This document shows positions 46,207 to 64,000 of a DNA stretch of 64,000 bases, in pieces (position 1 is the stretch's first letter; every line of letters begins with the position of its first letter). Under the pieces are notes generated by a model. That model saw nothing but the letters and a program-made list of their open reading frames with translations. It ran no database searches and was not told the origin of the DNA. This DNA is from Streptantibioticus ferralitis (GTDB taxonomy: Bacteria > Actinomycetota > Actinomycetes > Streptomycetales > Streptomycetaceae), in the NCBI RefSeq assembly GCF_029223525.1, contig NZ_JARHTQ010000011.1, positions 1 through 64,000 of the forward strand, given 5' to 3'. The translations under genes were made by a program, and so were the position numbers.

Positions 46207-47042
46207 GTAGACCACCCGCGGAGAGCCGGCGCGTTAACCGGCGCAAGAACCGGCACGACACGCCCCGGCCCCTGCGGCGCGGCCTCGACTCGTACCCGGA
46301 CGAGTCGTGCCGGGTCGTCTACATCGCGGCAGAAGGCGAGAAGACTGAGCCCGACTACGTCAATCTCCTCAACGACACCTACGGCCAGCGCCCCGGGCGG
46401 AAGTTCTTCCTGCACTTCTGCCATGCGGGCGAGGGGCTGCGGCCCAGCGAGGTGGTCAGCCATGTGATCGCCGCCGCGCCAAGCCCGAAGGACGAGAAGT
46501 GGGCTCTATTCGACCGGGACACAGCAGACAACCGTGATGACGACATCCGCGCCGCCATGCGTAAGGCGGCCAGGGAGGGGGTGCAAGTCGCCCTCTCACA
46601 CCCCTCCTTCGAGCTGTGGCTGCTCCTCCATTTCCAGCCGTTCACCAGCCAGGAGGACGGCCTCAGCGACATGATCAAGGATCGGCTGCGCAAGCATCCA
46701 GGGGCCAAGGGCTTCGCCGAGTACGACAAGAAGTCGGGCGACCGGGGCAAGGGGCTGGTCGGTCAGCGAGGCCAGTCCCTGTTGGGCAAGGAGAAAGCCG
46801 CGGTCGATCACGCGCGCAACCTTGTTGCGAACTGCCCGTACGGCGGATGCTCGACGAAGGAGCTCAGCTTCGACAAGATCCCCGGGCCACGCACCGAGTC
46901 GTACGAGGAGTGGAACCGCCGGTCCGGGCACGTAGACGGCTGTGATCCGCTGAAGCGAGACCCGTCCACCGACGTGTGGCGGCTGCTCTACATGCTGGAG
47001 ATCGGCACGGAACCATCCGGCTCGTCTGGCCACCGCCCCTGA
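46203..47042 (+). CDS. rloB: RloB-family protein
   Basis: The protein is 279 aa from GTG 46203, overlapping the RloA stop. The RloB domain begins [20 protein letters not shown] (Glu-rich strand-turn typical of TOPRIM-like folds), then [20 protein letters not shown] (DxD-type acidic motif) and [20 protein letters not shown] ([13 protein letters not shown] is the strongest family signature). The acidic residues could bind Mg2+ as in TOPRIM nucleases. With RloA it forms an ATPase-effector pair, comparable in logic to AriA-AriB; identity with that system is not implied. Likely acts on nucleic acid when the host is infected. Confidence 0.85.
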
Positions 47043-47125
47043 CCCGACGGTTTCCGTCAGGAGTGCCTCCCCGACTACGCTGCCGGAGTTCTCTCAAAAC
47101 TCCATGGCGTACGAAGGACCGGTGC

Positions 47126-49726
47126 GTGGCCCGTCTCACACTGCCCCAGCTAGAGCGGCATCTCTTCTCGGCCGCCGACATCCTGCGTGGTCGGATGGAC
47201 GCCTCGGAGTACCGTGACTACATCTTTGGAATGCTGTTCCTGAAGCGGTCCTCCGATGAGTTTCAGCCTGAATGGGAGCGCGTTCACAAGGATGCCCTGG
47301 AGCGGACCGGTGATCCGGCCAAGGCCTTGGCGCGAGCCAACGACCCGGACAAGTACCCCCGGATCTTCTACGTCCCGCCGCGCGCCCGCTGGTGGAAGGG
47401 CCCCCATGAGAACCTGGAGCAGCCGGACCATCCGCTCCCGGGACTGTCCATGCTCGTAGACCGCGTGGGTGAGAGCCTGGACCAGGCCCTCATGGCCCTC
47501 CAAGGAAGCCACAGCCGCCTCGCGGGTGTCGCCTCGCACATCTCCTTCAACGAGATCGTCGGCACCAAGCCCCGATTCACTAACGCCGAGTTGCGCTCGC
47601 TCATCCGCCATTTCAGTCTCTACCGGCTGCGCAACGAGGACTTCGAGTTCCCCGACATGCTGGGGGCGGCGTACGAATACTTGCTGGCCCGATTCGCCGA
47701 CTCGGCAGGCCAGCGAGGCGGCGAGTTCTACACCCCGCGCGAGGTGGTCCGAATGATGGTCCGCCTCGTCGACCCGCAGCCCGGGGACAGCGTCTACGAC
47801 CCCTGCGCCGGCTCCGGTGGCATGCTGATCGCAGCCCACGAGTACGTGGAGGAGCACGGCGGATCGCCTGACGACCTTTCCATCAACGGCCAGGACAAGA
47901 ATGGCCCCTCCTGGTCCATGGCCAGCATGAACATGGTCCTTCACGGCATCCGCGAGTTCGATCTCCATCACGGCGACACGCTCACCGAGCCTCTGCATCT
48001 CACCCCGGCCGGCCGGCTGCGCACCTTTACCAAGGTCCTGTCGAACCCACCCTTCTCGCTGAACTACGACGCCGAGTTGGTCGAACTCGCCGATGGGAAA
48101 CACGGCTGGCGCATGAAGTGGGGCGCCACTCCCGAGAATGGCAAAAAGGCGGACCTGATGTTCGTCCAGCACATGATCTCCGTGCTGGAGGCGCGGGGTG
48201 TGGCGGCCACAGTCATGCCGCACGGTGTGCTCTTCCGTAGCGGCAAGGAGCGCGACATCCGCTTCAAGCTGCTGGAGGACGATTGCATCGAGGCCGTGAT
48301 CGGCCTAGGCCCCAATCTCTTCTACGGGACGGGCATCCCGGCCTGCATCCTGGTGCTGCGGCCGCCGCACCGCAAGCGAGGGCCGCGGGAAAAGTACGTC
48401 CTCTTCATCAACGCGGATCGAGACTTCCGGGCTGCCCGCAACCAGAACGAACTTGGCCCCGAGCACGTCGAGAAGATCGCCACGGTCTTTCGGCACTGGA
48501 GGCAGCAGCCGGGCTACTCGCGCGCGGTGAGTGTCAAGGAGCTTCTGGCCGCCGACGCCAACCTGAACATCCGCCGCTGGGTGGACAACTCGCCGCCAGC
48601 CGAACCGCAGGACGTACGGGCGCACCTGTACGGCGGAGTACCGAAGGCCGAGATCGAAGCGAAGGCAAAGCTGTTCGAGGCGTACGGCGTTGACGCCTCG
48701 GCTCTCTTCGCGCCGCGTGACGGAGACCCGGAGTACGTGGACTTCCTCCCGGAGGGCCCCGAGACGATGGCCGCCCGCGTGCCGGAGCTGGCGGCCGCGA
48801 AGGAAGCGGAGCTGCGTGAGACGTACGAGAAATGGTGGGCCGACCAGGCCGCCCACTTCACGGCACTCGCCGACAATCACCGTTTGATGGATCTGCGCGA
48901 GCACCTTGTGTCCGGTTTCACGGAGGCCGTGGGCTCGACAGGAGTCCTGGACGAATACACGAGTGCCGGGATCATGGCCGACTGGTGGACGGTGACGAGG
49001 TACGACCTCAAGGCCCTCGCGGCGGGCGGGTACGAGCGGGTTCTCGAAGGCTGGGTCGACTCGGTCGAGACGATGGTCGAACCGGTGGTCCCGGACACGG
49101 ACGAGCCGGGTACCGGCTCAGGCTCCGAGCGTGGCAGGACTCGGACGAAGTCCTCCACAACGGCCGCCGACCGCCGCCGCGCGATGGACCAGCCGGTAGT
49201 CCGGGCGCTGATCCCGGACTTCGTGGCGGAGGTCGCCCGCGCAGACGAGGCGTATGCGGCGGCCGACGCCGCGTACAAGGCGGCCGTGGAGGAACTGGCC
49301 GCCGCGCAGCCGACCGCGCCAGGCGCGGTCGGGGACTCCGAGGAGGACTCCGAGGAGCGAACGCCTGTTGCGCCGGAGGACCTGGCCCGTCTGGAAGCGA
49401 AGGTCACTCGCCGCCGCAAGGAGCGCACGGCAGTATCGAAGAAGCGCTCGGCCTTGGACGCGCGTTTCCTACCGGAGCTGCACGCCTACTCCGAGCTGGC
49501 GAAGGCGGCGGATGGCGGTGCGCAGCGTGTTGTGCTGACCGTCCTGGACGAGGCTCTGTCCACCCGCCTGGACGCTGCGGTCGCTGCGGGGTGCCGCGAA
49601 CTGGTGGCGTCCGTGCAGCGCTGGGCCGAGAAGTACGCGGTCTCGCTGGAGGAGCTGGAGGCGGAAGGTGCGGACGCGGCAGGGGAGTTCCGGGACTGGC
49701 TGAAGGAGCTCGGCTATGCACGGTGA
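47126..49726 (+). CDS. hsdM: Type I restriction-modification methyltransferase subunit HsdM (extended)
   Basis: The protein is 866 aa from GTG 47126, with AAGGA upstream. The N-terminal HsdM helical domain starts [21 protein letters not shown]6-adenine methyltransferase motifs follow: [39 protein letters not shown] (motif I, about residue 228) and [12 protein letters not shown] (NPPF, motif IV, about 306). Beyond residue 500 there is a long helical and coiled-coil extension, so it is much longer than classical HsdM (about 500-550 aa). The stop overlaps hsdS. It methylates adenines in the host recognition sequence set by HsdS. Confidence 0.93.
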
Positions 49727-51044
49727 GGCTCTGATGGCGCACCGGTCATCCTGGCCGACCGACTGGCGCAGGGTGGCGCTGTCGGATGTCGGTAAATGGC
49801 TGTCCGGTGGCACGCCCAGCACGTCCAACGATGCGTATTGGGACGGCGATATCCCGTGGATCAGCGCGGCAAGCCTGAAGACTTTTCGTCTCGCCGAGTC
49901 AGATCGGCGCGTAACAGCGCTCGGCGCGGAGAACGGATCACGTCTCGTTGGAGCGGGAACGGTGCTATTCGTTGTCCGAGGCATGAGTCTGAAGTCGGAG
50001 TTCCGGATCGGCGTCACCCAGCGGACAGTCGCCTTTGGCCAGGACTGCAAGGCTGTGCTTCCTGCCGAGGACATTGACCCGTACTTCTTGGCCTACGCGA
50101 TCCAGACGAAGACACCAGAGATCCTGGCCATGGTCGAGGAAACCAGCCATGGGACGGGCCGTCTCGATACGATCCGGCTACAAGAGTTGGAGATCGGCGT
50201 GCCGCCGCTGCCTGAGCAGCGTCGAATCGTGGCCGCCTGCGAGGCGATCGAGCGTCGTATCGCCGCCATCAAGCGTGTGCGAGCCAAGCTTGCAGTGTTG
50301 AGGCGCACCGTGGTTGACGACTTGGTGACAGGCCCGCCGCTGGCACTGGGTACCCTGCTCGAACATCGGCCACGGAATGGCTTCTCACCGCTTGAGGTGC
50401 CTGAATGGACCGGATTGCTGACGCTCGGTCTCGGCTGTCTGACAACAGACGGATTTCGCCCGCGTCAGATGAAGCGCATTCCGGACAGTGACTCGGCACG
50501 ACGCTTTCTGCTCGCGGACGGTGACCTTCTGATGAGCCGGGCCAATACCCGGGAACTCGTCGGGCTGGTAGGCATGTACAGGGACGTAGGCTACCCATGC
50601 ATCTATCCGGATCTGATGATGAGGTTGCGTCCTGACCCCGGAAAGTGCCTACCGGAGTACCTGGCGCTGGTGCTCAGCACCCCCAGCGTTCGGCGCGCCA
50701 TTCAGGCGGGTGCGCGTGGGACGAGCGAGTCCATGGTGAAGATCAGCGCAGAGTTCGCAGAGTCGCTTGATGTACCCCTACCGTCGGTCGAAGCGCAACG
50801 GCGTGCGGTGCTGGCAGTTGCCGCCGTCGACTCACGCATCGCCCAGCAGGGGGCGGTGATTGACAAACTCCGGTTGGTTCAGCGGGCGGTGACCGAAGAC
50901 CTACTGGTGGGAAAAGCAGGCGTGGATGTCCTCCGCCATACGGTCCGTCAGCGGAGCGTGCCGCCGAGCGTAACTGTCCTTACCCCGGAGAGGAATGCTG
51001 CCAACGCGGCGGGGCTCCGACCCTCACCACTCAGTGAGGGATGA
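49716..51044 (+). CDS. hsdS: Type I restriction specificity subunit HsdS
   Basis: The protein is 442 aa; ATG 49716 lies 11 bp inside the hsdM end and has AAGGAG well placed. Two target-recognition domains: TRD1 from [20 protein letters not shown] to the spacer helix [20 protein letters not shown], and TRD2 to the second helix [20 protein letters not shown]. The repeated central helices (PLPEQRRIV... and [11 protein letters not shown]...) are the HsdS coiled-coil spacers. The first TRD opens with the frequent SGGTPS-x-x-x-x-YW-x-G-x-IPW motif. The C-terminal 45 residues are low complexity. The recognition site cannot be derived from sequence. Confidence 0.92.
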
Positions 51045-51650: not shown

Positions 51651-51813
51651 AAAGCGACCTGCGGCGGGCCGAGACACCTCCTCTAGCCCCCGGCCGACGC
51701 TCGCCGCCTGACTCCGCAGACCGGCCCCCTCCACGCCCGTGGGTAGAGTTGCCCTCACCTCTGTTCGATGGGGGGACGGGCGCGACGTACGGCTACGGGC
51801 GGGGAGTTCGGGG

Positions 51814-54800
51814 ATGGGGCAGCCGGAATACGAGAAGGTCGAGAGGCCGCTCATCGACCAGCTGGTCGCCATGGGATGGCGACACCACGTCGGTGCGCCT
51901 CCCGCAGAGCCCGCAACTGACTCCGCGAAGCAGCACGGCGATGATCCGGCTCATGCTGGCCAGACAGCAGTTGCGGCTGTGTTCGCGGACCGGTTCCGTA
52001 CTGCCGTTGCCCGTATCAACCCCGGTGCCGATGGCAATCCCTGGCTCACTGGCGATCAGCTGGAGTATCTCCTCGCGCTGCTTCTCGGCACCGTGGCGGG
52101 CCGAGGCCCGGCCGACCGCGGGGTCGCCGAGAATCTCCGCGTCACCAAGCTCCTGCGCGATGGGGTCAACGCGCGCACGCTCCCGGGATGGGCCAAGGGG
52201 GATCCCGAACACGTCCGGTTGGTCGACTGGGAAGTGGCGGATGGGCCGTTCGCCGAGCTCGGTGAGGCCGGGACCGGCAACGATCTGCTCGCCGTATCCC
52301 AGTTCAAGGCGGAACGCAGCAGTGGCGGTACTGCGATCCCCGACCTGGTGCTGTTCGTCAACGGCCTGCCCTGGGTGGTCATCGAGTGCAAGGCGCCCTT
52401 GTCGCGAGGTGGCGAGAAGCGATTCGCCATCGACTGGGCGGTCGAGGACGTCATCGGCTATACCGGCGCCGAAGCCGACGACCCGGTCCCCGAGTTAGTA
52501 CGGTTCGCGCAGCTGCTCGTGGCCACTGACAGGGACCACGCGGAGCTCGGCACGGTTAGCTCGGAGGCCGAGCACTTCGCGCCCTGGCGTACCGTCTACC
52601 CGGCAGCCCGGGACAAGGTCCGGGGAGAGGCCGGGGTCCCCGAGCACCGGCAAGAACTTTACGCCCAGGAGACCTTGGTCGGCGGTGTACTCCGGCCCGC
52701 GCATCTGCTGACGCTCGTACGGGACTTCACCACCGCGGCCGGACGCGGCCCCCGTACGGTCAAGGTGGTCGGGCGGTACCAGCAGTTTAGGGCCGTACAC
52801 AAGATCGCCAAGCGCCTGCGCGACCGCCGCGAGACGCAGGCCGCGGGCCAGGACGTCGATCAGCGCGGCGGTGTCACCTGGCACACCCAGGGTTCTGGCA
52901 AGTCCCTGACCATGGCCTTCCTCGTCCGCCACCTGCGCAGCAGCAGGGACCTGAAGGGACATAAGGTCGTCGTCGTAACCGACCGCAAGGATCTGGAGAG
53001 GCAGATCCGCACCAGCATGGCGGCGGCCGACGAGACGATCCACCGGGCGCCGTCGGTGCGCCACGCCCGCCGATTTCTGGGCCTGGACGTCCCGGACGTC
53101 GTGCTGGTCATGCTCCAGAAGGCCCGCCGGGACGACGCGGCGGACGATGGCCGTGACGAGCTGCTCGCGACCTCTCCCGACCATCGGGACCACGTCCATA
53201 ACCGTGTGGCGAACGCGAGTTCCGACATCGTCGTCCTCGTCGACGAAGCGCACCGGGGGCAGAGCGCCTGGCAGCACGCCCGCCTGCGCGCCATGCTGCC
53301 CAATTCTGCCATGGTGGGCTTCACCGGCACCCCCATCCTCAGTGGGGCCCGCAAGACCACCGAGGATATCTTCGGCTCATACGCCGACACCTACACGCTG
53401 AAGGACGCCGAGCGCGACGGCTCTGTCGTCCCCGTGCGGTACGAGGCCCACCAGGCGGACCTGGAGATCATCGAAAAGGCGCATCTCGATGCCGGATTCG
53501 ACGAGAAGGTACCCAGCGACCCCGAGAAGCGGACGCGTGTCCTCCGCAAGTTCGGGCGCAAGAAGGAAGTCCTCGAATCGCCGTCGGTGATCGCCTGGAA
53601 AGCCGATCACATGGTGCGCCACTGGGCACAGACCGCTCTACCGGACGGATTCGGCGCCCAAGTCGTCGCGGTCTCACGACGCGCCGCCGTGGCGTATCGC
53701 GACGCCCTGCGGAAGGCCCTGGCCGGGCTGGTGGCGGAACTGGACGCGCTCGGCGGCGACGCGCACGACCCGGCCGCGGGTCCCGCCCCCGACGGGCAGG
53801 TCGACCTGGTGAGCCTGCTGCGTTACCGCGATGTCCTCGCCTCGGTCGACGCGGCCGTGGTCATCTCGAAGTCTCAGAAGAAGGGGGAGAGCAAGGGGGC
53901 TAAAACTAACGATCCTAAGGAGTGGGATGCGTGGACTCGCCCGGGGAGCCAGATGGCGCACATCGAACGATTCCGGCGCGGCGTGCCCGTCCCCGATCCC
54001 TTCGAGGTGAGTGAGGATCCCTCGTGGGCCGCCCGGATCCACGGTCGGCCGCAAGGTGGTCCCCAGCCAGGGACAGAGGTCTCGGTTCATGATCCCTGGC
54101 ACCGGGAGACCGCAGCCCAGCGCCACAAGGCTGCAGACCGGCCGGATGCCAAGAAGAACGAGCGCCCGCTCGGGTTCCTCGTCGTCACCAACATGCTGCT
54201 CACCGGTTTCGACGCCCCCGTCGAACAGGTCATGTACCTCGACCGTCCGATGTTCGGCGCCGGCCTGCTCCAGGCTATCGCCCGCACCAACCGCCCGTAC
54301 CACAAGAAGCAGTGGGGGCAGGTGGTCGACTACGTGGGGATCGGCCCCGACCTGGCCAAGTCGATGAACGCGTACGAGGACGCGCACCTGCGCGCCGTAC
54401 TTGGCTATGAGGACGTCTCCTTCGACCACCTTGACCCCGAAAGCGGAGCACCGCGGCCCGTCCGGGACCGGATGTGGCTCCAGACTGACGCGGCGGCCGA
54501 CGCCCTCCTCGCCGACCTTTACAAGCGGCTTGGCGACTTCCTGGCGGAGCAGGGGATCAGTACGCTCACTGAGGAGTCGCAGCGGGAGGATCTGCTCGCC
54601 GCACTGGAGGATCCGCTGCTGCGGGGCGAGTTCGACGAACTGGCGCGGGATTTCCTCAACGCGCTCAACGCGGTCCTGCCCCGCCCAGGCGCACTCGTGT
54701 ACGAGACGTTCGCCGCTCTGCTCGGCGAGGTGCAGTACCTGGCACGGGTGCGCTATCTCGACGGCCGGGATCAGTTCAGCCCGCGCCGCTACGGGGCCAA

Positions 54801-55452
54801 GGTGCGCGCGCTGATCGCCGCGCATCTGCGGGTGATCGACATCGTGGAACGGGTGCCGGGGATCGAGCTCGGTGCCCCCGACTTCATGGACCGGGTCAAT
54901 GCCAACGCCGATGCGCGCGCCCGGATCTCATACCTCACCAGCCGTATCCATACGCACATCACGACGCGGCTGGATGGCGACCGCGATCGGTACGGGACGT
55001 TCAGCGAGCGCCTGGAGGCGGTCATCCAGCGGATGAACGCGGACTTCGACGCGGCTGCCGCAGCACTCGCGCGCCTTGCCGCCGACATCGTCGCCGCGGA
55101 GCGCGACGGGGGCCCGGAGGCCGAGGCCGGGCTGGAACCGTGGACCGAACGACCGGTGTACGCGGTGCTCGCCGGCCGGGTGACCGGAGCCGGCCCCGTT
55201 GTTCCCGCGGGAGTCGACCTGCACCAGGCGGCGCGCGACCTCACGTGGACTATCTCCGGACTCGTGCGTTCCCCGAACTTCACCACGTTGCCTGACGCCC
55301 GGGAGCGCGTGCGTAGGGAGCTGCGGAACCACTTGGAGGCTGAGCTGTTCATCGACTGGGGTGAGACGGGGCCGATCGCCAGCGTGCTGGTCGACCTCGC
55401 GTTTCACCGGCATAGCGACTTCCTGCACTATGCCGAACGTGGTGAACCCTGA
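51814..55452 (+). CDS. hsdR: Type I restriction endonuclease/translocase subunit HsdR
   Basis: The protein is 1212 aa from ATG 51814. N-terminal PD-(D/E)XK nuclease: IPDLVLFVNGLPWVVIECKA (D at about 176, E-x-K at about 190). Superfamily 2 motor: Walker A WHTQGSGKSLTMAFLV (about 357), DEAHRGQSAW (DEAH box, about 478) and MVGFTGTP (motif III), then later LLTGFDAPVEQVMYLDRPM and QAIARTNRP (motifs V and VI). The C terminus is helical and binds the HsdM/HsdS core. It cuts unmethylated DNA after translocation. It is separated from hsdS by a 770-bp gap holding decayed genes, so it needs its own promoter. A TTA codon at 52495-52497 (codon 228) makes it potentially bldA-dependent. Confidence 0.93.
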   Translation: MGQPEYEKVERPLIDQLVAMGWRHHVGAPPAEPATDSAKQHGDDPAHAGQTAVAAVFADRFRTAVARINPGADGNPWLTGDQLEYLLALLLGTVAGRGPADRGVAENLRVTKLLRDGVNARTLPGWAKGDPEHVRLVDWEVADGPFAELGEAGTGNDLLAVSQFKAERSSGGTAIPDLVLFVNGLPWVVIECKAPLSRGGEKRFAIDWAVEDVIGYTGAEADDPVPELVRFAQLLVATDRDHAELGTVSSEAEHFAPWRTVYPAARDKVRGEAGVPEHRQELYAQETLVGGVLRPAHLLTLVRDFTTAAGRGPRTVKVVGRYQQFRAVHKIAKRLRDRRETQAAGQDVDQRGGVTWHTQGSGKSLTMAFLVRHLRSSRDLKGHKVVVVTDRKDLERQIRTSMAAADETIHRAPSVRHARRFLGLDVPDVVLVMLQKARRDDAADDGRDELLATSPDHRDHVHNRVANASSDIVVLVDEAHRGQSAWQHARLRAMLPNSAMVGFTGTPILSGARKTTEDIFGSYADTYTLKDAERDGSVVPVRYEAHQADLEIIEKAHLDAGFDEKVPSDPEKRTRVLRKFGRKKEVLESPSVIAWKADHMVRHWAQTALPDGFGAQVVAVSRRAAVAYRDALRKALAGLVAELDALGGDAHDPAAGPAPDGQVDLVSLLRYRDVLASVDAAVVISKSQKKGESKGAKTNDPKEWDAWTRPGSQMAHIERFRRGVPVPDPFEVSEDPSWAARIHGRPQGGPQPGTEVSVHDPWHRETAAQRHKAADRPDAKKNERPLGFLVVTNMLLTGFDAPVEQVMYLDRPMFGAGLLQAIARTNRPYHKKQWGQVVDYVGIGPDLAKSMNAYEDAHLRAVLGYEDVSFDHLDPESGAPRPVRDRMWLQTDAAADALLADLYKRLGDFLAEQGISTLTEESQREDLLAALEDPLLRGEFDELARDFLNALNAVLPRPGALVYETFAALLGEVQYLARVRYLDGRDQFSPRRYGAKVRALIAAHLRVIDIVERVPGIELGAPDFMDRVNANADARARISYLTSRIHTHITTRLDGDRDRYGTFSERLEAVIQRMNADFDAAAAALARLAADIVAAERDGGPEAEAGLEPWTERPVYAVLAGRVTGAGPVVPAGVDLHQAARDLTWTISGLVRSPNFTTLPDARERVRRELRNHLEAELFIDWGETGPIASVLVDLAFHRHSDFLHYAERGEP

Positions 55453-55495: not shown

Positions 55496-56230
55496 GTGAG
55501 TACCACGGTTCAGCAGGCGATCGCCGCGCTGCCCCTTCCTGAGGGTTGGCGATGGCGCGTCGACTGTCGGCCCCGGCGCCGGACCCTGGGCATCGAGGTG
55601 ACACCGGACGGTGAAGTGGTGTTCGCGGTCCCCATGAACGCCGATCCCGGGACGGTCGCCGCTGCGGTCCGCCGTAGGCTTCCTCGGCTCGGGGCCGTAG
55701 TGCGCCGTCGTACCACTCGGCCTGGAGAGCCGGTCAAGGAGCTCGTCGTTGGGAGCAGCTTTGCCTATCTCGGCCGACGGTACCGGCTCCGGCTGGTAGA
55801 GGCCGGCCCCCACTCCCGGGTCCGGCTGCGGGCTGGATGGCTGGAACTCCCCGAGCCCTCCTCACCGGTCGCTGGGGTGGCCAGCCTCGTGGGCTGGTAT
55901 ACCGAACGGGGGCGGCGTTGGCTTGCCGCCCGTACAGACTCTGTCGAAACGCGCATAGGCGTGCGATCCGAAGGAGTCACCGTGGGTGATCTGGGAGTGC
56001 GCTGGGGATCCTGCACCGCTGACGGCTCCATCTCCCTTCACTGGGCCGTCATGCAGCTCCCCCCCGACTTGATTGAATATGTTCTGGTTCACGAGCTCTG
56101 CCACTTGAAGGAGCCCGGGCATGGCCCTGCGTTCCGTCGGGAAATGACGCTAGCCCTCCCTGACTTCGCCCGGCGCGAGACGTGGTTCGAGCAAGAAGAA
56201 CCATTCATGTGGCGCGGAAGCGTCAGGTAG
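55496..56230 (+). CDS. M48/YgjP-like metallopeptidase (DUF45)
   Basis: The protein is 244 aa from GTG 55496. The zinc site HELCHLKEPGHGPAFR (HExxH at about residue 199, third His in the HGPAF part) is near the C terminus, preceded by LGVRWGSCTADGSISLHWAV, the typical WGSC-x-x-x-G motif of the YgjP/DUF45 family. It starts 44 bp after hsdR. Such genes are frequent companions of type I R-M operons. It may regulate the HsdR subunit by proteolysis, as ClpXP does in Escherichia coli; that is inference. Confidence 0.85.
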   Translation: MSTTVQQAIAALPLPEGWRWRVDCRPRRRTLGIEVTPDGEVVFAVPMNADPGTVAAAVRRRLPRLGAVVRRRTTRPGEPVKELVVGSSFAYLGRRYRLRLVEAGPHSRVRLRAGWLELPEPSSPVAGVASLVGWYTERGRRWLAARTDSVETRIGVRSEGVTVGDLGVRWGSCTADGSISLHWAVMQLPPDLIEYVLVHELCHLKEPGHGPAFRREMTLALPDFARRETWFEQEEPFMWRGSVR

Positions 56231-56428
56231 CAATGGAGGGATGCCGTGCTCGCGCAGCGAAACCCGCAGGCCGGAATGATGTGCATCGAGAGACTGGCGT
56301 CTGGCCCTGGGAAGGTTTGCTGTGTGAGGGAGCGGGGTACCGTCGCAGCAATTGACGCTATACCGCACGGGGTGCGCCGGACGCAAATGCGTAGCCATTG
56401 ATCCGCTGTCAGGGGAAAATCCCTGTGC

Positions 56429-57517
56429 ATGAGCGAAGAAGCATCACCCGGCCGCCGCTTCGGCACGGAGTTCGTCCGTGCGCAGCGGGCTCAGCATGGA
56501 AAGAAGACTCCGGAACAGCGCGAGCTGTCGTACGACATCGCCGTCAATGACGAGTATGCGCCGTGGCGAGACTGGCTGGACGAGCAGCTTGCTCTTCTGT
56601 CGAAAGCCGAAGCGGACGCCTTGGCCGGAAAGCTTTGGTACGACGAGCACTTCTGGGCTGTCATCAACGAGCTTGCGGTCGGCTGCGGGCTTCGAGCCGC
56701 AGGCCTGGAGATCGTCTACGAGCAGCGTTGGGGGACCCAGACGCCGGATTGGACAGTGCTGGCACCGGATGGCCAACCGGCATGCCTAGTTGAGGTCCAC
56801 ACGGACAGCCCGACAAAAGAGACGTACGGTCAGATGCGGGCGTGGTCCGGTCTGGCGATGCGGCTGCGGACGATCCCGGTGCCGATAGTGTTGACGCTCG
56901 CCCCCATGGACACGCCGCCAGTGCCGCCGAGCCCACAGGAGGCAAAGAAGATAGCCCAGTACGTACGCCGGGAGATCATGCAGCCGTGGCGCCGGAATTA
57001 CTTCACCTGCCTCAGCTACACCTTCCTGGTCATGGGCGACCGGCGGACCGGCAGCCTGGCGCAGTCCCCGCTGGGGATGGCGGCATGCTTCGAGCCGCCG
57101 AGTTGCCTGGCTGGCGAGGTGAGTGCGCATCGGGCTGCAGAGAAGGCCGAGGAGAAGGCCAAGAAGTACCGAACGCTTCAACAGGAGACAGGCCTGCCGC
57201 TGGTTGCCGCGATTGGTGCCCACCGCTTCACTGGCCTGGGTCTAGAGCAGCTCGATAACCTGCTGGCAGGTAATCCCACGATGACGCTCCAGTTCAATGC
57301 AGGAGATGCCTACCTCGGCAAGCCGATCCAGATTGACCTGAACAAGCCGCGGAAATGGCAGATGCCGTCGGATCTTGCGGGGGTGCTATGGGTTGGTAAC
57401 CAGTTCCCGTTCGGCGACCTGGCCTGGCGCCCTAACCCGCGCGCTGTGCAGCGGGTGCCCGAGGCGATGAGCCAGCTATGGTTGTCGCGCGAGCGGCAGG
57501 CACCGAAGACTCCGTAA
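56429..57517 (+). CDS. Uncharacterised protein, possible PD-(D/E)XK-like nuclease
   Basis: The protein is 362 aa from ATG 56429. I do not recognise a named family. The central part reads LEIVYEQRWGTQTPDWTVLA then DGQPACLVEVHTDSPTKETY: a strand with an Asp in PDW, a turn of about 12 residues, and a hydrophobic strand ending in E-V-H, the shape of a PD-(D/E)XK nuclease site with His in place of Lys. A coiled region (AAEKAEEKAKKYRTLQQETG) and a later IQIDLNKPRKWQMPSDLAGV segment follow. No membrane helix. It is the last gene of the defence island. Nuclease activity is a hypothesis only. Confidence 0.7.
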   Translation: MSEEASPGRRFGTEFVRAQRAQHGKKTPEQRELSYDIAVNDEYAPWRDWLDEQLALLSKAEADALAGKLWYDEHFWAVINELAVGCGLRAAGLEIVYEQRWGTQTPDWTVLAPDGQPACLVEVHTDSPTKETYGQMRAWSGLAMRLRTIPVPIVLTLAPMDTPPVPPSPQEAKKIAQYVRREIMQPWRRNYFTCLSYTFLVMGDRRTGSLAQSPLGMAACFEPPSCLAGEVSAHRAAEKAEEKAKKYRTLQQETGLPLVAAIGAHRFTGLGLEQLDNLLAGNPTMTLQFNAGDAYLGKPIQIDLNKPRKWQMPSDLAGVLWVGNQFPFGDLAWRPNPRAVQRVPEAMSQLWLSRERQAPKTP

Positions 57518-58009
57518 GGCAGCTCCAGTGTCCGCCCTGTTGGAGTCGACCTCGCATTGCTAGGCGTCGTCGTCGGGCAGAGGCGGAACCTGGTGGCGCT
57601 GCCGAGGGAATTCAAGTTCTTGTGAGACCTCGGGGCTTGCATCACCCCGACAACGTCGCCTGGCCCTCCTCGCACCGTCGTGTCGCCTGCCTTGCGGTGT
57701 TGCCTTCTACGACGATGGCTGTGTAGTTGTTACTCAGGCGGGTCCCAGAGCCCGGGCGGCGGGTCAGGTATCCAGCCCCAACGCGGGGCCCTCACGAACT
57801 CTTCGGTCACGCGGGTACAAGCCCCTGGTACGTGCGCGTACCGCGTGGGTGAGATCAGGGTCGTGTCTGCGGGGAAGCGCTGCCATTCCCGCCTCGGCCG
57901 TGACGTACGAAGTGCCTTCGACGTGGAGCCGTCGGTTGGGCGGTTACACCCGAGTCCAACGATGCGGCTGCATCTTGCGCAGCGCTCTTCTTCGCTACCG
58001 CGTTCATCA
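57518..58009. other. Non-coding gap after the defence island
   Basis: No supported gene in these 490 bases. Short frames lack ribosome binding sites. A CCTCGGGGCTTGCATCACCCCGA hairpin-like segment near 57630 could act as a weak terminator for the upstream gene. Confidence 0.4.
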
Positions 58010-58483
58010 TCATGCCGTATTGGTGTCGATGCGGTAGACGATCTTTCCGTCGAACTCGGCGAATCCGAGGGATCGGTAGAAGGATCGTGCGTCTGGGTTG
58101 TCGTGGTCGGTCATCCACTCGATACGGCTGCAGCCGGGGCGTGCGGCGGCGAGGGTGCGGAGTTGGTTCATGAGTTGGGCGCCGATGCCTTGTCGGCGGA
58201 GGGTGTCGCGGACGTAGAGCTCTTTGAGGAAGAGGGAGTGGGAGGAGCCTGCTGCTGGCCAGAGGAAGGAGTAGGCGGCGAGGCCGACGAGGTCGCCGGC
58301 TTCGTCTTCGACCAGGAGAGCGGATGCGAGCGGCGGTGATCCGAAGAGGGCTTCTTCCACTTGGGGCCGGCGTTCTTCGAGTGGCTGGATTTCGGTCGAT
58401 CCGTAGAACCGTTCGATCTCCTCGATCAGTTCGGCCACGGCGAGGATGTCCCGCTTGTCGGCGGGGCGGATCGTCACGGTCAT
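58010..58483 (-). CDS. GNAT-family N-acetyltransferase
   Basis: The protein is 157 aa from ATG 58483, with GGAGACGACG upstream. The GNAT fold is shown by VTIRPADKRDILAVAELIEE at the N terminus, SLFLKELYVRDTLRRQGIGA followed by QLMNQLRTLA (acetyl-CoA loop R-R-x-x-G-I-G-A) and NPDARSFYRSLGFAEFDG at the C terminus. It transfers an acetyl group from acetyl-CoA to an amine; the substrate is not indicated. It lies 75 bp downstream of the radical SAM gene on the same strand and could be part of that operon, which would make the peptide a candidate substrate. Confidence 0.85.
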   Translation of the reverse strand: MTVTIRPADKRDILAVAELIEEIERFYGSTEIQPLEERRPQVEEALFGSPPLASALLVEDEAGDLVGLAAYSFLWPAAGSSHSLFLKELYVRDTLRRQGIGAQLMNQLRTLAAARPGCSRIEWMTDHDNPDARSFYRSLGFAEFDGKIVYRIDTNTA

Positions 58484-58558
58484 CGTCGTCTCCTGTCGTT
58501 CTCCGGTCGCTTTACTCGCTTGCTCCAACGCGTGATCCCCTGTGGGGGTGCGGCGTGG

Positions 58559-59719
58559 CTAGGGGGACGGTGCGGAGGGTGCGTGCGGATTCCAGCCGTG
58601 CTGCCGCAGGGAGTTGTGGACGTGGCGTATGAGGTGCTCGAGGTCACGGCAGTAGACGGAGGGATTCTGGTAGCCGCGGGTGGTGCTGAAGCGATGGGGG
58701 AGGTAGCCGCCGCCGCACACGTCCACGAGCGCGCAGCGCTGACATTTCTCGGCCAGCGCGGTAATGCCGTGTTCCCGGTGCTGAAGCTTGGGATGGCGAA
58801 GGGCGTCGTCGAAGGGGTGGTTGGCGACGTTGAGGCCTAGCCAGGAGGCGCCTTCCTCGACGGATCGCAGGGTGTCCACGCCTTCGATTGTTCCGTCGGA
58901 CTCGATTACGACGCTGGTTGGCGGGGCGAGGCCGAGGGTTTCCACTGAGCCGTGTACGCCGGAGCTGAGCGCGACGATGTCTTCCAGCATTCGGACGCTG
59001 TGCCGGTGGTCGGGCCGGGCGAGCCAGGTGTCGTAGACGCGGCTCATCCACAGCCCGTATTCGGGCACGGTTGGGTCGTTGCGGTGGGGCGGTTGGTCGT
59101 GCGTTCCGTGTGGCAGGTTGAAGTCGATCACTGGGGGGTCGAATGATCCCAGGTAGTCGTGGACCTGCACCGGGTCGTTGGCCAGGTCTACGACGGCGAG
59201 CAGTCCGGCGAACAGGTGCGGTCGGGACCGCAGGAGTTCGATGCCGTGTACGGCTGAGGCGGCGCTCGATCGCGAGGCGTGAGTGAGCCGGTGTCGGTCG
59301 TTCGCGGCTGGTGGCCCGTCGAGGCTGACGCCCACGGCCACCTCGTACTGCTCGAAGAGGTTGAGCCACGCCGTCGTGAGGAGCGTCCCGTTGGTCTGGA
59401 GCTCGAAGCGGACTGCCGTATCCGCGGGTATCCCGTGACGGACAGTGCTGAGCAGGTTGGCCATGTGGCGGGGACCGGCGAGCAGTGGTTCGCCACCGTG
59501 CAGCACGATATGCACCGTAGGCAGGGCGTGCGCCGTGATGTGCTCACTGATCCGTCGACCTGCCGCTCGGGCTACGTCCAGGCTCATGCGGGCGGGAAGG
59601 TGCCGCCACGCCTGGTCCGTGGAGTTGAAGACGTAGCAGTAGTCGCAATCGATGTTGCAGCGGTTCGCGACCTTGAGGATGAACGTCTGAAAGGGTGCGG
59701 TGTCTTCCAGCGGTGTCAT
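58559..59719 (-). CDS. fxsB: FxsB-type radical SAM/SPASM peptide maturase
   Basis: The protein is 386 aa. Radical SAM CxxxCxxC is CNIDCDYCYVF (Cys21, Cys25, Cys28), followed by HIVLHGGEPLLAGP and FELQTNGTLLTTAWLNLFEQ, VAVGVSLDGPPAANDRHR. The C-terminal SPASM domain has EKCQRCALVDVCGGGYLPHR then FSTTRGYQNPSVYCRDLEHL, the FxsB arrangement. FxsB-type enzymes join an aromatic residue to a nearby side chain in a precursor peptide, forming three-residue cyclophanes. The gene starts 13 bp after the small precursor-like gene, on the same strand. It lacks the C-terminal extension found in some longer FxsB proteins. Confidence 0.9.
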   Translation of the reverse strand: MTPLEDTAPFQTFILKVANRCNIDCDYCYVFNSTDQAWRHLPARMSLDVARAAGRRISEHITAHALPTVHIVLHGGEPLLAGPRHMANLLSTVRHGIPADTAVRFELQTNGTLLTTAWLNLFEQYEVAVGVSLDGPPAANDRHRLTHASRSSAASAVHGIELLRSRPHLFAGLLAVVDLANDPVQVHDYLGSFDPPVIDFNLPHGTHDQPPHRNDPTVPEYGLWMSRVYDTWLARPDHRHSVRMLEDIVALSSGVHGSVETLGLAPPTSVVIESDGTIEGVDTLRSVEEGASWLGLNVANHPFDDALRHPKLQHREHGITALAEKCQRCALVDVCGGGYLPHRFSTTRGYQNPSVYCRDLEHLIRHVHNSLRQHGWNPHAPSAPSP

Positions 59720-59732
59720 CGAGCGGTAGCGC

Positions 59733-59933
59733 TCACAGTGGCCAGGGCAAGATGATCGAGGCTGCGTGGGAGCCGTCGCCGACGCGGTTCGTCGCGGCCT
59801 GCTCGGCCGCTAGCCGCTGCCGGACACGGGCAGCGACACGGTCCAAGACCGCCGTGCCCTGTGCCGCCTGCGCGGGCTCGGGGCCGACGGTAGCCGAGGC
59901 CTGTGGCGCGGGAGCAGACGTGGGTGACGGCAT
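59733..59933 (-). CDS. Putative RiPP precursor peptide (66 aa)
   Basis: ATG 59933 has AGGAG seven bases upstream. The peptide is MPSPTSAPAPQASATVGPEP, AQAAQGTAVLDRVAARVRQR, LAAEQAATNRVGDGSHAASI, ILPWPL. An Ala/Pro-rich start, an amphipathic helix (VLDRVAARVRQRLAAEQ) suited to leader binding, then a Gly hinge and a short hydrophobic, aromatic tail. Position next to an FxsB-type maturase and a strong ribosome binding site argue for a substrate peptide. The tail lacks the canonical FxSxx terminus; candidate three-residue crosslink motifs are H-A-A and W-P-L. It may therefore belong to a new subclass. Product unknown. Confidence 0.72.
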   Translation of the reverse strand: MPSPTSAPAPQASATVGPEPAQAAQGTAVLDRVAARVRQRLAAEQAATNRVGDGSHAASIILPWPL

Positions 59934-60063
59934 TCAGCGCTCCTCGTGATGGGCACACCGTGGCAGACCGGCACAGTGCGACGGCGGTGGAGACGACAGC
60001 TGAGCTGGCAACGTAACAGCCGTACCGCCCGCGGCGGCATACGGAAACCGGTCACATGCCTGG

Positions 60064-62844
60064 CTATCCGGGCTGCGATGCCAGCAGTCGCTCGATGCCC
60101 TCGGCCGCCGGGCCTGCGCCCAACCTCCGGTATGTGGCCAGTGCTTCACGCAGCGAGCCTGCGGCCTGAATGGGCCTGTCGACCGCCCAGTCGCAGCGGC
60201 CGATGCCTTCCAGCGCCCGTGCTTCCTCCAGCGGGCAGCGGATGTCGCGGGCCACAGTCAGCGCTCGCTCGAAGTGTTCGCGGGCGGCGGTCTGGTCACC
60301 GCAGGTGCGCAGCAGCGATCCCCAGTGGTTCAACACCTCAGCTTCGCCGTACCGGTCACCCAACTCGCTGAGGATCTCCAGGCTGCGCTGGAACGCCTCC
60401 ACAGCGCCGTCGCGCTCTCCGATGTTTCCGAGAGCCGCTCCAAGCTCGCTCAGCGAGGCGGCCTCGCCCCCGCGACTGCCCAGATCGCGATACGCGTCCA
60501 GGGCTTCTTCCAGCAGCCGGATCGCCTCCGTGGCGTTATGGGAGACGCGCTCCAGTGCCCCGAGATGACGGATGCTGTTCGTCCGCCCGAACCGGTCGCC
60601 GAACTCGGTGAAGAGCTCGAGTGCCTGGGCGTGGGCGTCCCGGGCACCGGCGAGATCACCGGTCAGTCGCCGCACCACGCCCAACTCGTTGAGGGCGTAG
60701 GCCTGGTGGTGCCGGTCGTCGAGCTCCCGGTAGATGTCGAGCGCTTCGCGGTGTTGTCGGGCGGCTCGGTCGTACTCGCCCAAGAAGCAGTGCACCGCGC
60801 CGAGGTCCCGCAGCGAGTTGGCCTCCCCGTAGCGGTCGTTCAGCTCGCGGTAGATTGACAGGGCTTCGCTTTGCGCCTCCACGGCTGCGTCGAACTGACT
60901 TGTTTGTCGGCGCACCATGCCGAGGTCCGCGAGGGCGTTGGCTTGGCCGAGCCGGTCGCCGAGCTCGCGGTAGATGGCGAGGGCCTCGCTCTGGGCTCGG
61001 GCCGCGGCCTCGTTGTCCGCGGTCAGGTACCAGACAATGCCCGCCTGGTTCAGGGCGTCCGCCTTTCCGCGCCGGTCGCCGACCGTCTCGTACTGTGTCA
61101 CTGCCTCGTTTAGGGCTTCGGTCGCTTCGGGGTAGGCGGCCATGCAGCGTCGTACGACTCCGAGTTCGGCCAGCGCGCCGGCGAGGGCCCGCCGGTCGCC
61201 GGTGTGCCGAGCGGCTTCGGCTGCCGTCCGGTGCAGGCCGACGGCTTGGTCCCAGGGGCCGGCCTGCCGCAGGAAGGGAGCCATGGCCGCGGCCAGGCGG
61301 ATCACCAGGTCGTGCAGGGCGAGGCTGTTCGCCCGCCGGATGCAGGACAGAATGTTGGGTCGCTCGTTCTCCAGCCAATTCAGCGCCGCTGTACGCGTCT
61401 GGATGGGTGGGGTCTCTACCGGCGAGGCGTTGTCTAGCGCGGGCGGAGTGACCGCGTCGCCGCGGGCGATGTGGTTGTTCGCTGCGGCGAGCGCGGCCAG
61501 GTAGTAGGTGCACACACGCTGGACGGCCTGAACGTGGTCCATGCTGGCTCCCTCGTCGGCGAAACCGCGGGCGTAGTCGCGTAAGAGATCATGAAGCCGG
61601 TAGCGGCTCCCTGGGTGTTCGTCGATCAGGTGGGCGTCGTAGAGCGCGTCGAGGTGGCTACGGGCCGCTGCCACCGGAACCAAGCCGAGCGCGGCCCCGA
61701 CGTACGCGTCGAGGTCCGTACCAGGGTAGAAGCCGAGAGACTGGAAGAAACGTTGACGCTCTGGCGTGAGATCCCGAAAGGACAGATCGAACGTCGCGGT
61801 GACCGCGCGCTCCCCGGCGCGCAGTTCCCCCAGCCGATCCCGGGCCGCCACCAGCCGCTCCCGTAGGTCCTCGGCACTCCAGGACGGATGGTGCCGCAGT
61901 CGTGCCGCGAGCAGCGACACCCCCAGCGGCAGGTATCCGCACAGCCGCACCAACTCTTCCAGCACGCCCCGGTCGAGGGTGTCGGCCGACCGCCCGCTGA
62001 GCCGTACGAACAGGTTGACCGCGTCGTCCGGCGGCAGCGCATCCACCGGCAAGACCACCTCCTCGTGCGCCGCCAGCCGTTTACGACTGGTCACCAGCAC
62101 CAGACAGCCACCGCCACCTGGAAGCAGGGGCTCCAGCTGCCGGTAGCTGGCCGCGTTGTCGAGGATGAGCAGCGCCTTCTTGTCCGCGAGCCGACTCCGC
62201 CATATGGCGGCCCGCGCCTCCGTGACCGCGTCCACGTCATCGCCGACCGGGATCTGCTGAGTCGGCACACCGGCAGCCGCCAGCAGCGAGGCCAGCGCTT
62301 CGACAGCCTGCACTGGGCTGCGCCCCGGCGTGTGCCCGTTGAGGTTCACAAAGAGCTGACCATCTGGAAACCGCTCCGAGAGCACATGCCCGGCGTGGAC
62401 CGCGAAGCTGGTCTTCCCAACCCCTGCCATCCCGTCGATCACATGAACGGGCAGCGCCTCGCCCCTCTCCTGCGACGCCCGCACCGACACCTCCAGCCGC
62501 TCCAGCTCGGCGGACCGATCAGTGAACGCCGCAGAGTCGCGCGGCAGCGACCGCAGCACCAGCGCGGCACCTGGAGGACCCGAGTCATCCTTCGGTCGAG
62601 GCAACTGCTCGGGGCTCAGCGTCGGCCCACGGCTCTCGGACAACGCGGCGAGCAACGCGGTTAACCCGACTGTCGCCACGCCCAGCATGACGAACGAGAG
62701 CCAAGGGTGCCGCTGTATCCATCCCAGCCATCCGGGCCAACGCGACTGGCTGGACACCGCGTTCGTGACGAGCCCTACGAGCATTGTCGTCAGCGCGCCA
62801 CCACCGGCGACGACGGCGATAGTGATGCCCTGGCGGAGCCTCAT
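60064..62844 (-). CDS. fxsT: Membrane-anchored NB-ARC/TPR protein (FxsT-like STAND ATPase)
   Basis: The protein is 926 aa. Two N-terminal membrane helices (GITIAVVAGGGALTTMLVGL and WLSFVMLGVATVGLTALLAA), then an NB-ARC ATPase: Walker A VIDGMAGVGKTSFAVHAGH (about residue 142), Walker B KKALLILDNAAS, sensor CLVLVTSRKRL and GYLPLGVSLLAARL (GxP). After a winged-helix part (RYRLHDLLRDYARGF) there are about ten TPR units of 40 residues with the repeating A-x-x-x-x-x-x-A-x-x-I/L-Y/F-R-E-L-G-D pattern. This is the STAND/NLR-like layout of FxSxx-COOH-system TPR proteins. It could sense the peptide or act as regulator. Its start overlaps a short upstream frame (ATGA). Confidence 0.88.
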   Translation of the reverse strand: MRLRQGITIAVVAGGGALTTMLVGLVTNAVSSQSRWPGWLGWIQRHPWLSFVMLGVATVGLTALLAALSESRGPTLSPEQLPRPKDDSGPPGAALVLRSLPRDSAAFTDRSAELERLEVSVRASQERGEALPVHVIDGMAGVGKTSFAVHAGHVLSERFPDGQLFVNLNGHTPGRSPVQAVEALASLLAAAGVPTQQIPVGDDVDAVTEARAAIWRSRLADKKALLILDNAASYRQLEPLLPGGGGCLVLVTSRKRLAAHEEVVLPVDALPPDDAVNLFVRLSGRSADTLDRGVLEELVRLCGYLPLGVSLLAARLRHHPSWSAEDLRERLVAARDRLGELRAGERAVTATFDLSFRDLTPERQRFFQSLGFYPGTDLDAYVGAALGLVPVAAARSHLDALYDAHLIDEHPGSRYRLHDLLRDYARGFADEGASMDHVQAVQRVCTYYLAALAAANNHIARGDAVTPPALDNASPVETPPIQTRTAALNWLENERPNILSCIRRANSLALHDLVIRLAAAMAPFLRQAGPWDQAVGLHRTAAEAARHTGDRRALAGALAELGVVRRCMAAYPEATEALNEAVTQYETVGDRRGKADALNQAGIVWYLTADNEAAARAQSEALAIYRELGDRLGQANALADLGMVRRQTSQFDAAVEAQSEALSIYRELNDRYGEANSLRDLGAVHCFLGEYDRAARQHREALDIYRELDDRHHQAYALNELGVVRRLTGDLAGARDAHAQALELFTEFGDRFGRTNSIRHLGALERVSHNATEAIRLLEEALDAYRDLGSRGGEAASLSELGAALGNIGERDGAVEAFQRSLEILSELGDRYGEAEVLNHWGSLLRTCGDQTAAREHFERALTVARDIRCPLEEARALEGIGRCDWAVDRPIQAAGSLREALATYRRLGAGPAAEGIERLLASQPG

Positions 62845-63032
62845 GCGCGCGCCGCCACGATGGTCACGAGCCTGTACATGTCCGCCTGGCCGCCGTCTGC
62901 CCGAAACAGCGCACGCAGATCCGATTTGATCACGAAGGCCACCCCCCAGTCCGACAAGTCGACTCCCAAGCGGAGCAGCATTCGCGGACCGTGGTCAAGG
63001 TCGACACCCAGGCAGGCCGCCGCTCGACACAC
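62841..63032 (-). CDS. Small frame coupled to the NB-ARC/TPR gene (63 aa)
   Basis: GTG 63032 opens a frame that reads MCRAAACLGVDLDHGPRMLL, RLGVDLSDWGVAFVIKSDLR, ALFRADGGQADMYRLVTIVA, ARA; its stop overlaps the next ATG (ATGA). The ribosome binding site is weak. The sequence has ordinary protein composition and might be the tail of a larger lost gene or a coupling leader. No family recognised. Confidence 0.35.
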   Translation of the reverse strand: MCRAAACLGVDLDHGPRMLLRLGVDLSDWGVAFVIKSDLRALFRADGGQADMYRLVTIVAARA

Positions 63033-63088
63033 CGTTCTGCACCAAGGGCCACGGCGCCAACAACAGGATGCTGCGTCGGATCAGCAGA

Positions 63089-64000
63089 TCATCGGCCTTG
63101 CGTTTCGTTTGCGGGACGAAGATGGCGCATGAGCTGTTGCAGTGCTGTCCAGCTGGAGACGGACGGGCTCTCGCTGAGCGGGTAGTACAGGCCGGGGAGC
63201 TCGGCGCAGCCGAGCACCTGCACGGCGACCGGCACGGGCGCGTGGCGGGCGTGGTGGAAGCCGACTTCCTGGACTGGCTTGGGGCCGATGGCGAAGGCGA
63301 GGGGGATGGGAAGGTCTTCGAAGTGTCCGGGGGCAGTGAGGTCCCGGCGAGCTGCGCGGCGTTGCGCGAGCAGGGAGTGCAAGTTGTGCTCGGTGGCCAG
63401 TTGGGCAGCCAGGTCTGGTAGTCGGTCGAAGGGCGGCTGTTCTCCTTCGGCGTAGCCGAGGGCGATGGTGACGTCTTCTTCGACGCCTGCGGTGGTGCGG
63501 GCGATGCGCATGGTGGCGATGGCAGGGCGGTCGGGCGTTCCGACGGCGACGATCCAGGTGCCGTCGGGGACGCGCCTGCGGGCGAGGCGGGTGATGTCGG
63601 GGCGGGACCAGGGCAGGTTGGCGGGTTCAGCGGTGGCCCAACCCGATGGGGGCGTACCAGTCAGGGTGCGCCAAGCGGTCTCTAGTCCACCGCCGAGCAG
63701 GAGTTGTTCGTCGGCCGGGTGGCAGGTGCGGAGCGAGAGGAGGAGTTGGCTGTCCGCTGTGACGTCGACGTCGCAGAAGGCACGAGCTACTGGCACCTCT
63801 CCCGGTGGGTTCCCAACGGGTGTGAAGGCGCCATCGTGCCAGTGGAGTTCGGTTCCGAACAGTCCGTCGTAGTAGCCGCCCGCAGGGTTGCGTACCACCC
63901 AGCGGTTCGGTGGGCCCATGAGGGCGGTCCGGGTCGGCAGGCTGAGCCGTGTGCTCGGTGGGGTGACGATCTGCAGGGCGCGGTTGCTGACCAGGCAGGA
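63089..64000 (-). CDS. DUF6177-like protein, 5' end beyond the window
   Basis: The frame stays open to the right edge with SCLVSNRALQIVTPPSTRLS then LPTRTALMGPPNRWVVRNPA, so the ATG at 63919 is internal and the start lies outside. Visible parts: GGYYDGLFGTELHWHDGAFT, DSQLLLSLRTCHPADEQLLL, GWATAEPANLPWSRPDITRL and VQEVGFHHARHAPVPVAVQV. It agrees in my reading with DUF6177, a family of large actinomycetes with unknown function. No membrane segment in the visible 304 residues. Same strand as the FxsT gene, 56 bp upstream of the small frame. Confidence 0.6.
   Translation of the reverse strand, partial: SCLVSNRALQIVTPPSTRLSLPTRTALMGPPNRWVVRNPAGGYYDGLFGTELHWHDGAFTPVGNPPGEVPVARAFCDVDVTADSQLLLSLRTCHPADEQLLLGGGLETAWRTLTGTPPSGWATAEPANLPWSRPDITRLARRRVPDGTWIVAVGTPDRPAIATMRIARTTAGVEEDVTIALGYAEGEQPPFDRLPDLAAQLATEHNLHSLLAQRRAARRDLTAPGHFEDLPIPLAFAIGPKPVQEVGFHHARHAPVPVAVQVLGCAELPGLYYPLSESPSVSSWTALQQLMRHLRPANETQGR

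Follow-up and report, generated by a model that had tools for sequence, protein, structure and literature searches.

The window analysed here, a stretch of 64,000 nucleotides from a contig of Streptantibioticus ferralitis, carries four genes for a predicted modified peptide which, judged by profile matches and gene order, are a further member of the already named haa system. This identity, together with the His-Ala crosslink chemistry predicted for the peptide, we consider highly probable. The locus itself is ordinary, its chemistry and gene set having been named before, and its interest lies in its role: haa operons tend to be found among genes for defence against viruses. This placement is the less expected part and hints at a function in immunity or conflict. 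Labels beginning with L, G and C are the locus, genome and contig numbers of this analysis; G000 is the source genome, and the window lies on its contig C13. The operon reads haaT-haaA-haaB-haaN, 5′ to 3′ on the minus strand, with the following features.

60064-62844, minus strand: haaT, membrane-anchored NB-ARC/TPR (STAND) protein of 926 amino acids (aa) (NF041717; Pfam NB-ARC and TPR)
59934-60063, minus strand: haaT-haaA intergenic stretch with conserved CTACGTT (MAFFT alignment of 16 loci)
59733-59933, minus strand: haaA, precursor of a ribosomally synthesized and post-translationally modified peptide, 66 aa (NF041708)
59757-59768, minus strand: predicted crosslink motif His56-Ala57-Ala58-Ser59 inside haaA (H-x-A-S conservation; review chemistry)
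58559-59719, minus strand: haaB, FxsB-family radical S-adenosylmethionine (SAM)/SPASM peptide maturase, 386 aa (TIGR04269)
58010-58483, minus strand: haaN, GNAT N-acetyltransferase, 157 aa from ATG (NF041716; alignment of 19)

HaaA scored 104.3 bits against NF041708 (cut-off 55; query without its first residue) and was recovered at 107.8 bits in a genome-wide profile search. HaaN reached 316.1 bits against NF041716 (cut-off 250) and HaaT 1591.8 bits against NF041717 (cut-off 1125). Since the cut-offs of the NCBIfam models HaaA, HaaN and HaaT are thus exceeded, and since a Streptomyces plasmid copy (L052) is annotated haaT, haaA, FxsB-family maturase and haaN in the identical order, we place the window genes in the HaaA/B/N/T system, with which they share all four genes, the order and the H-x-A-S core of the precursor. 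They differ from it in the precursor tail, ILPWPL rather than the commoner IWPWPL, and in a decayed fifth gene (ORF5), neither of which excludes membership. The preliminary description of this DNA had proposed a "new subclass" of cyclophane peptide; this has to be withdrawn, because the three models are matched above their cut-offs and a review of such enzymes already lists the His-Ala crosslink. Its account of the genes themselves holds: a 66-aa peptide with a strong ribosome binding site (gaggag precedes the haaA ATG), an FxsB-type enzyme gene whose start lies 13 bp past the haaA stop, a membrane-anchored NB-ARC/TPR protein, and the combination of this NLR-like (nucleotide-binding leucine-rich repeat receptor-like) protein with a GNAT enzyme and a peptide in one operon.

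Relatives were collected by scanning genome contigs with HaaB alignments, 78 loci being kept of 199 related stretches; the first 45 of the 78 (L053-L097) were taken as haa-type candidates and, with eight from other searches, gave 53. By tblastn all four genes were detected at 46 of the 53, which puts the gene set beyond chance. The full set was missing at seven: L047, which is a remnant; L089-L092, where the precursor has diverged too far for BLAST; L093; and L097. The GNAT gene is present on the same strand, as described earlier, as an open frame at 58010-58528 with a TTG start; its start is more likely the ATG at 58483 than the TTG at 58528, because the resulting 157 aa equal the annotated length in L052. 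Between haaT and haaA, 15 of 16 loci carry CTACGTT and the remaining one CTACCTT, a possible promoter of haaABN, and TTGACC is conserved upstream of haaT in most of the 16 aligned loci.

The C-terminus of the window precursor, SIILPWPL, lacks an FxSxx end, as had been noted, and the earlier suggestion of H-A-A or W-P-L as crosslink site can now be narrowed. Alignment of the tails of collected homologues, proposed in the preliminary description, revealed H-x-A-S in all 46 distinct Streptomycetaceae precursors, no two of them alike in sequence; the variable position x holds Ala in 36 of them, Gln in seven, and Ser, His or Met in a single precursor each. The window peptide carries the motif as HAAS at residues 56-59. 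Part of the review's text reports that HaaB (WP_133931326.1) links C2 of His to C-beta of Ala and that ScaB acts on His-Ala-Ala, consistent with H-A-A as candidate site; the crosslink of the window peptide is therefore predicted to join His56 and Ala58.

A crosslink at W-P-L, or a second ring there, is very improbable. Trp is frequent near the precursor end (residue -3 in 15 of 20), but only 30 of the 46 distinct precursors terminate in WPL. At four loci of Micromonospora, Dactylosporangium and Actinoplanes (L089-L092) the open reading frame (ORF) before haaB carries H-x-A-S in four of four and WPL in none, with the ends AHAASLPAQS, AHAASIPAQS, AHSASIPEHP and THSASIPAR (the L091 peptide lying inside a longer frame). 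These Micromonosporaceae precursors are short (51-58 aa in three) and have no aromatic tail, ending AQS, AQS, EHP or PAR, yet relatives of HaaT, HaaB and HaaN stand alongside. It is this pattern, with H-x-A-S in 46 of 46, that favours His to Ala(+2) and disfavours W-P-L. A 64-aa ORF precedes an FxsB-like enzyme gene in an Acidobacteriia metagenome-assembled genome (L106:9645-9839); with its repeated His/Tyr/Ser-rich tail it is possibly an unrelated precursor.

HaaB scored 420.6 bits against the TIGR04269 FxsB model (cut-off 370), and its CNIDCDYC motif and Cys326, Cys329, Cys335 and Cys357 are invariant in 19 aligned sequences. The closest solved relative is the radical SAM domain of ChlB (PDB 9gm3; E 2.2e-86, residues 10-373). 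The earlier linking of an FxsB-type enzyme to cyclophane chemistry thus agrees with both the model match and the HaaB and ScaB crosslinks in the review. Likeness to the FxSxx-COOH/Fxs systems extends to the partner protein, an AP-ATPase/NB-ARC-TPR protein of the kind tied to FxSxx peptides in conflict systems in part of Kaur et al. (PMC7159879), which also places MoxR-vWA ternary genes at FxSxx loci; the differences are the window precursor without the FxSxx end and HaaT, which reaches 116.2 of the 300 bits required by NF040586, the model of the FxSxx TPR protein. Acetylation of the peptide by HaaN is what the NCBIfam name says. It would probably take place at the N-terminus, as the window HaaA has no lysine; six of the 46 relatives contain lysine, which in one case lies among the final 20 residues.

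HaaT matches Pfam NB-ARC (1.6e-7) and TPR_12 (1.3e-39); its P-loop GVGKT and its LILDN and LHD motifs are invariant in 20 aligned sequences, and two hydrophobic stretches lie at residues ~5-30 and ~46-71. The best solved relative is AfsR, whose residues 268-977, the NB-ARC and TPR halves, align on HaaT 79-790 (E 2.3e-78). The N-terminus of AfsR carries a DNA-binding part. From this likeness one may picture Haa as a regulatory system in which HaaT controls development or secondary metabolism and the cyclophane peptide is its ligand. We regard this as unlikely: HaaT attains 358.1 bits against the AfsR model NF053617, far below the cut-off of 1430, the match is limited to residues 79-790 with membrane stretches standing where AfsR has its DNA-binding part, and the distribution of haa is patchy, HaaA being matched in 20 of 391 genomes of the order, 19 of them above cut-off.

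The window operon adjoins a set of type I restriction-modification genes, which serve as context and lie outside it.

46976-49726, plus strand: hsdM (PADLOC MTase_I 6.2e-237)
49716-51044, plus strand: hsdS (PADLOC Specificity_I 1.1e-58)
51739-55452, plus strand: hsdR (PADLOC REase_I 2e-82)

The plasmid copy L052 adjoins genes for a DncV-like cyclase, a SAVED protein and a ThiF protein. In a first look with PADLOC at 1e-20, 157 neighbour proteins of at least 220 aa from 20 haa loci were compared with 221 from 20 control stretches, hand-picked at round coordinates on known contigs from 13 of these genomes rather than drawn at random; the results give matches per protein pool, not which protein matched. 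One haa-side pool (25 of 35 families listed) held DndA, B, C and D with two members each and a type II methylase with two; another (25 of 85 listed) held a type IV enzyme with three members, methylases with two and PbeA with four. One control pool (25 of 39 listed) held PD-T4-6, Cas12f/u, mad6 and others with one member each, and the matches listed for other control pools included IetA, mad2, mad3 in three members, C3a206 and AriA. Among the matches listed for the control pools, none bore a restriction, methylase or Dnd name. When ten proteins were scanned one by one, matches to type I, type IV, C5-methylase and helicase models came from L051, L048, L040, L041 and L006 and weaker ones from L045 and L032; L041:14876, L055 and L046 had none. 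The DndA-D labels of single proteins at L044 are our own reading of order and sequence.

A count of markers covered 18 genomes with 19 haa loci, G379 (short contig) and G390 (below cut-off) being left out. As markers we used all listed PF02384 rows below 1e-21 (47), all listed PF00145 rows below 1e-20 (13) and the best 26 PF04851 rows listed, the last cut being set by eye where one-per-genome helicases begin; for the LanC-like comparison, 21 rows below 1e-10 were taken and two dropped as neighbours of listed rows. A restriction-type marker lay within 16 kb of 10 of the 19 haa loci (one of the ten being the G273 remnant), of none of 18 non-haa FxsB loci above cut-off, and of one of 19 LanC-like loci (Fisher P 0.0004 and 0.003, respectively). 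After merging look-alike contexts the haa count became 6/15 (P 0.005 versus FxsB, 0.03 versus LanC). Sixteen defence proteins of these loci, used as queries, gave matches at 14 of 51 haa loci and none of 20 controls; most of the 14 were source loci or their duplicates, the new ones being L060 (Dnd), L079 (HsdR and HsdM) and L080 (HsdR). A DndA-like match at L061, with 37% identity, may be a housekeeping desulfurase. A LanC-like domain lies 4-6 kb from haaA at L034 and L035 (G062:C16 and G145:C16), in two species.

That haa serves conflict or immunity is, of the functions we can name, our choice, though held tentatively and at well under an even chance. More specifically, the membrane-anchored NLR-like ATPase HaaT and a His-Ala cyclophane acting as alarm, effector or guarded ligand, with ORF5 in most Streptomyces copies, could form an immunity or conflict module traded among defence islands; this is possible but doubtful, and we lowered its probability slightly because the test weakened after merging. 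Gene identity, operon order, invariant motifs and defence-gene placement were observed here, and the crosslink comes from the work of others on relatives; cleavage, acetylation, the action of HaaT and the biological role we infer. In the proposed scheme HaaB would bind the HaaA leader at the conserved VLDRVAARVRQRL stretch, and would form, by radical SAM chemistry, a three-residue cyclophane in which C2 of the His56 imidazole is bonded to C-beta of Ala58. The C-terminal core would be released by a host protease and the peptide acetylated by HaaN, probably at its N-terminus; HaaT, a STAND ATPase anchored in the membrane and similar to the NB-ARC/TPR half of AfsR, would control or respond to the product. 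If the placement in defence islands is a sign of function, the pairing of a crosslinked peptide with an NLR-like ATPase would constitute a novel type of immune component in bacteria. We recognised neither a described role of any kind for Haa peptides nor an immune role for radical SAM peptides in the open literature, most subscription journals lying outside the search.

Several points weigh against this scheme. HaaA is a short sequence, and the crosslink of the window peptide is predicted from that sequence, the chemistry being that of relatives; no Haa-specific enzyme model appeared among 25 of 69 NCBIfam families listed, HaaB exceeding the cut-off of FxsB instead; and no conserved gene of the operon was recognised as encoding a protease or an exporter. 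Candidate defence models also match the controls, and nine of the 19 haa loci have no counted marker. Haa is absent from PADLOC 2023, in which HaaA and HaaN have no match, HaaT matches TPR models only and HaaB matches pVip weakly (6.2e-12). Although markers near haa exceeded expectation for PF00145 (4/13 against 0.053), for PF04851 (5/26 listed against 0.105) and for PF02384 (2/47 against 0.19, P 0.016), these Poisson values assume an independence which fails, and the association is weakened by shared descent and by thresholds chosen by eye. Finally, it is common for accessory clusters to lie in one island with defence genes; for lanthipeptide clusters, part of Hourigan et al. (PMC12715929) reports such proximity to defence systems (odds ratio 4.90), citing Gao et al. 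for radical SAM peptides.

The same odds ratio speaks for a serious competitor, to which we give a chance not far short of even: the product would be exported as an antimicrobial or a signal, and haa would be cargo of accessory islands, with no functional link to defence. The very variable neighbours of haa (clustering of 22 loci), as hot spots would give, and its presence above cut-off in just 19 of 391 genomes suit this view, but the other peptide-cluster anchors of the same genomes are not near markers (0/18 and 1/19, above), and no exporter was recognised among the conserved operon genes.

Adjoining haa and Dnd parts have different histories, as far as trees and identities tell. The same Dnd block adjoins haaT at L060, L062 and L072, whose HaaT fall in three clades, that of L062 grouping beside the plasmid copy L052 (95/86). 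In pairs with L072, DNA identity is 86-87% on the Dnd side and 76-79% on the haa side; L060 and L062 align in a single match of 84%, in which identity by windows falls in the same way, and L062 and L052 are 87.6% identical across the operon. That haa was swapped as a unit beside Dnd was considered and dropped, as Dnd movement or faster haa evolution fit equally. Carriage of haa by viruses was likewise dropped, a scan having found no HaaN relative in viral contigs. Among plasmid records 166 match HaaB at all, one at 80% identity and the other 165 below 60%. The remnant L047 (G273:C7) retains no more than the tail of haaA and the beginning of haaB, and adjoins a C5 methylase gene.

Downstream of haaN many haa loci carry ORF5, an undescribed protein of ~116 residues with invariant Cys and His, for which five queried members gave no convincing NCBIfam or Pfam family. 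Its alignment extends over at least 100 residues at 27 of 51 haa loci, in 26 cases no more than 70 bp from the haaN stop, and the median ratio of nonsynonymous to synonymous substitution rates (dN/dS) over 119 pairs from 16 sequences is 0.25. ORF5 would be a component of the operon that has so far been missed. It is not specific to haa, since its profile matches 44 of 391 genomes, many without HaaA, against 20 with HaaA. At five places away from HaaA, ORF5 stands beside a haaN-like fragment (G130), near an AfsR-like protein (G363), or with neither (three). ORF5 was not found at L053 or at the C17 copy described below, and in the window it is broken.

57648-57993, minus strand: ORF5, decayed copy of a Cys/His-rich protein gene (two profile pieces in different frames)

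The pieces are 57742-57993 (8.7e-38) and 57648-57755 (1.4e-5), and no start codon was seen in the first frame after the haaN stop. This copy lies past haaN and so falls outside the stretch 58010-64000 of the preliminary description.

The genome holds a second haa operon on contig C17 (G000:C17:124202-129626, L006). The block shared with window positions 58017-63438 is 93% identical over 5428 bp, including ~350 bp of the 3′ end of the neighbouring DUF6177 gene, and in the tree the HaaT of the two operons group as sisters (99/97), with Streptomyces sp. RPT161 as their neighbour. On C53, 116 bp matching the end of haaN (G000:C53:36689-36804, L007), followed by ORF5-like sequence, is by these matches the remnant of a further copy. 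Against the last 20 kb of the window, the genus-mate G002 shows a haa block of 5.2 kb at 91% with short or weaker pieces, and G001 short pieces only; the type I genes of that stretch were seen in neither. One may ask whether the window copy is redundant or decaying and the C17 operon the working one, given the sister operon, the broken ORF5, and the Leu of ILPWPL where most relatives have Trp. This we find decidedly unlikely: all four named window genes are open with good model matches, C17 has no ORF5 either, and Leu at residue -5 occurs in two of 20 precursors.

Genes of type VII secretion character were seen near both copies, namely WXG100-like and large WXG-type proteins beside the C13 copy (L005:6825-11072) and an EccC-like FtsK/SpoIIIE gene (4.5e-61) left of haaT beside the C17 copy (L011/L006). 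A link of haa to this pathway was rejected as local, since the 967-aa window-side protein clusters with L032 only and the DUF6177 protein with none.

63089-64000, minus strand: DUF6177 gene, 476 aa, neighbour, continuing beyond the window end (PF19674 4e-125 for the whole gene)

The DUF6177 gene is present on the minus strand as the preliminary description said, but it is a neighbour and not an operon member, no homologue being found at other loci in the clustering of 22 related loci. Between hsdR and haa (within 55496-57517) lie a 362-aa ORF with no Pfam or NCBIfam match and a gene for a YgjP-like metallopeptidase (PF01863, 1.2e-43).

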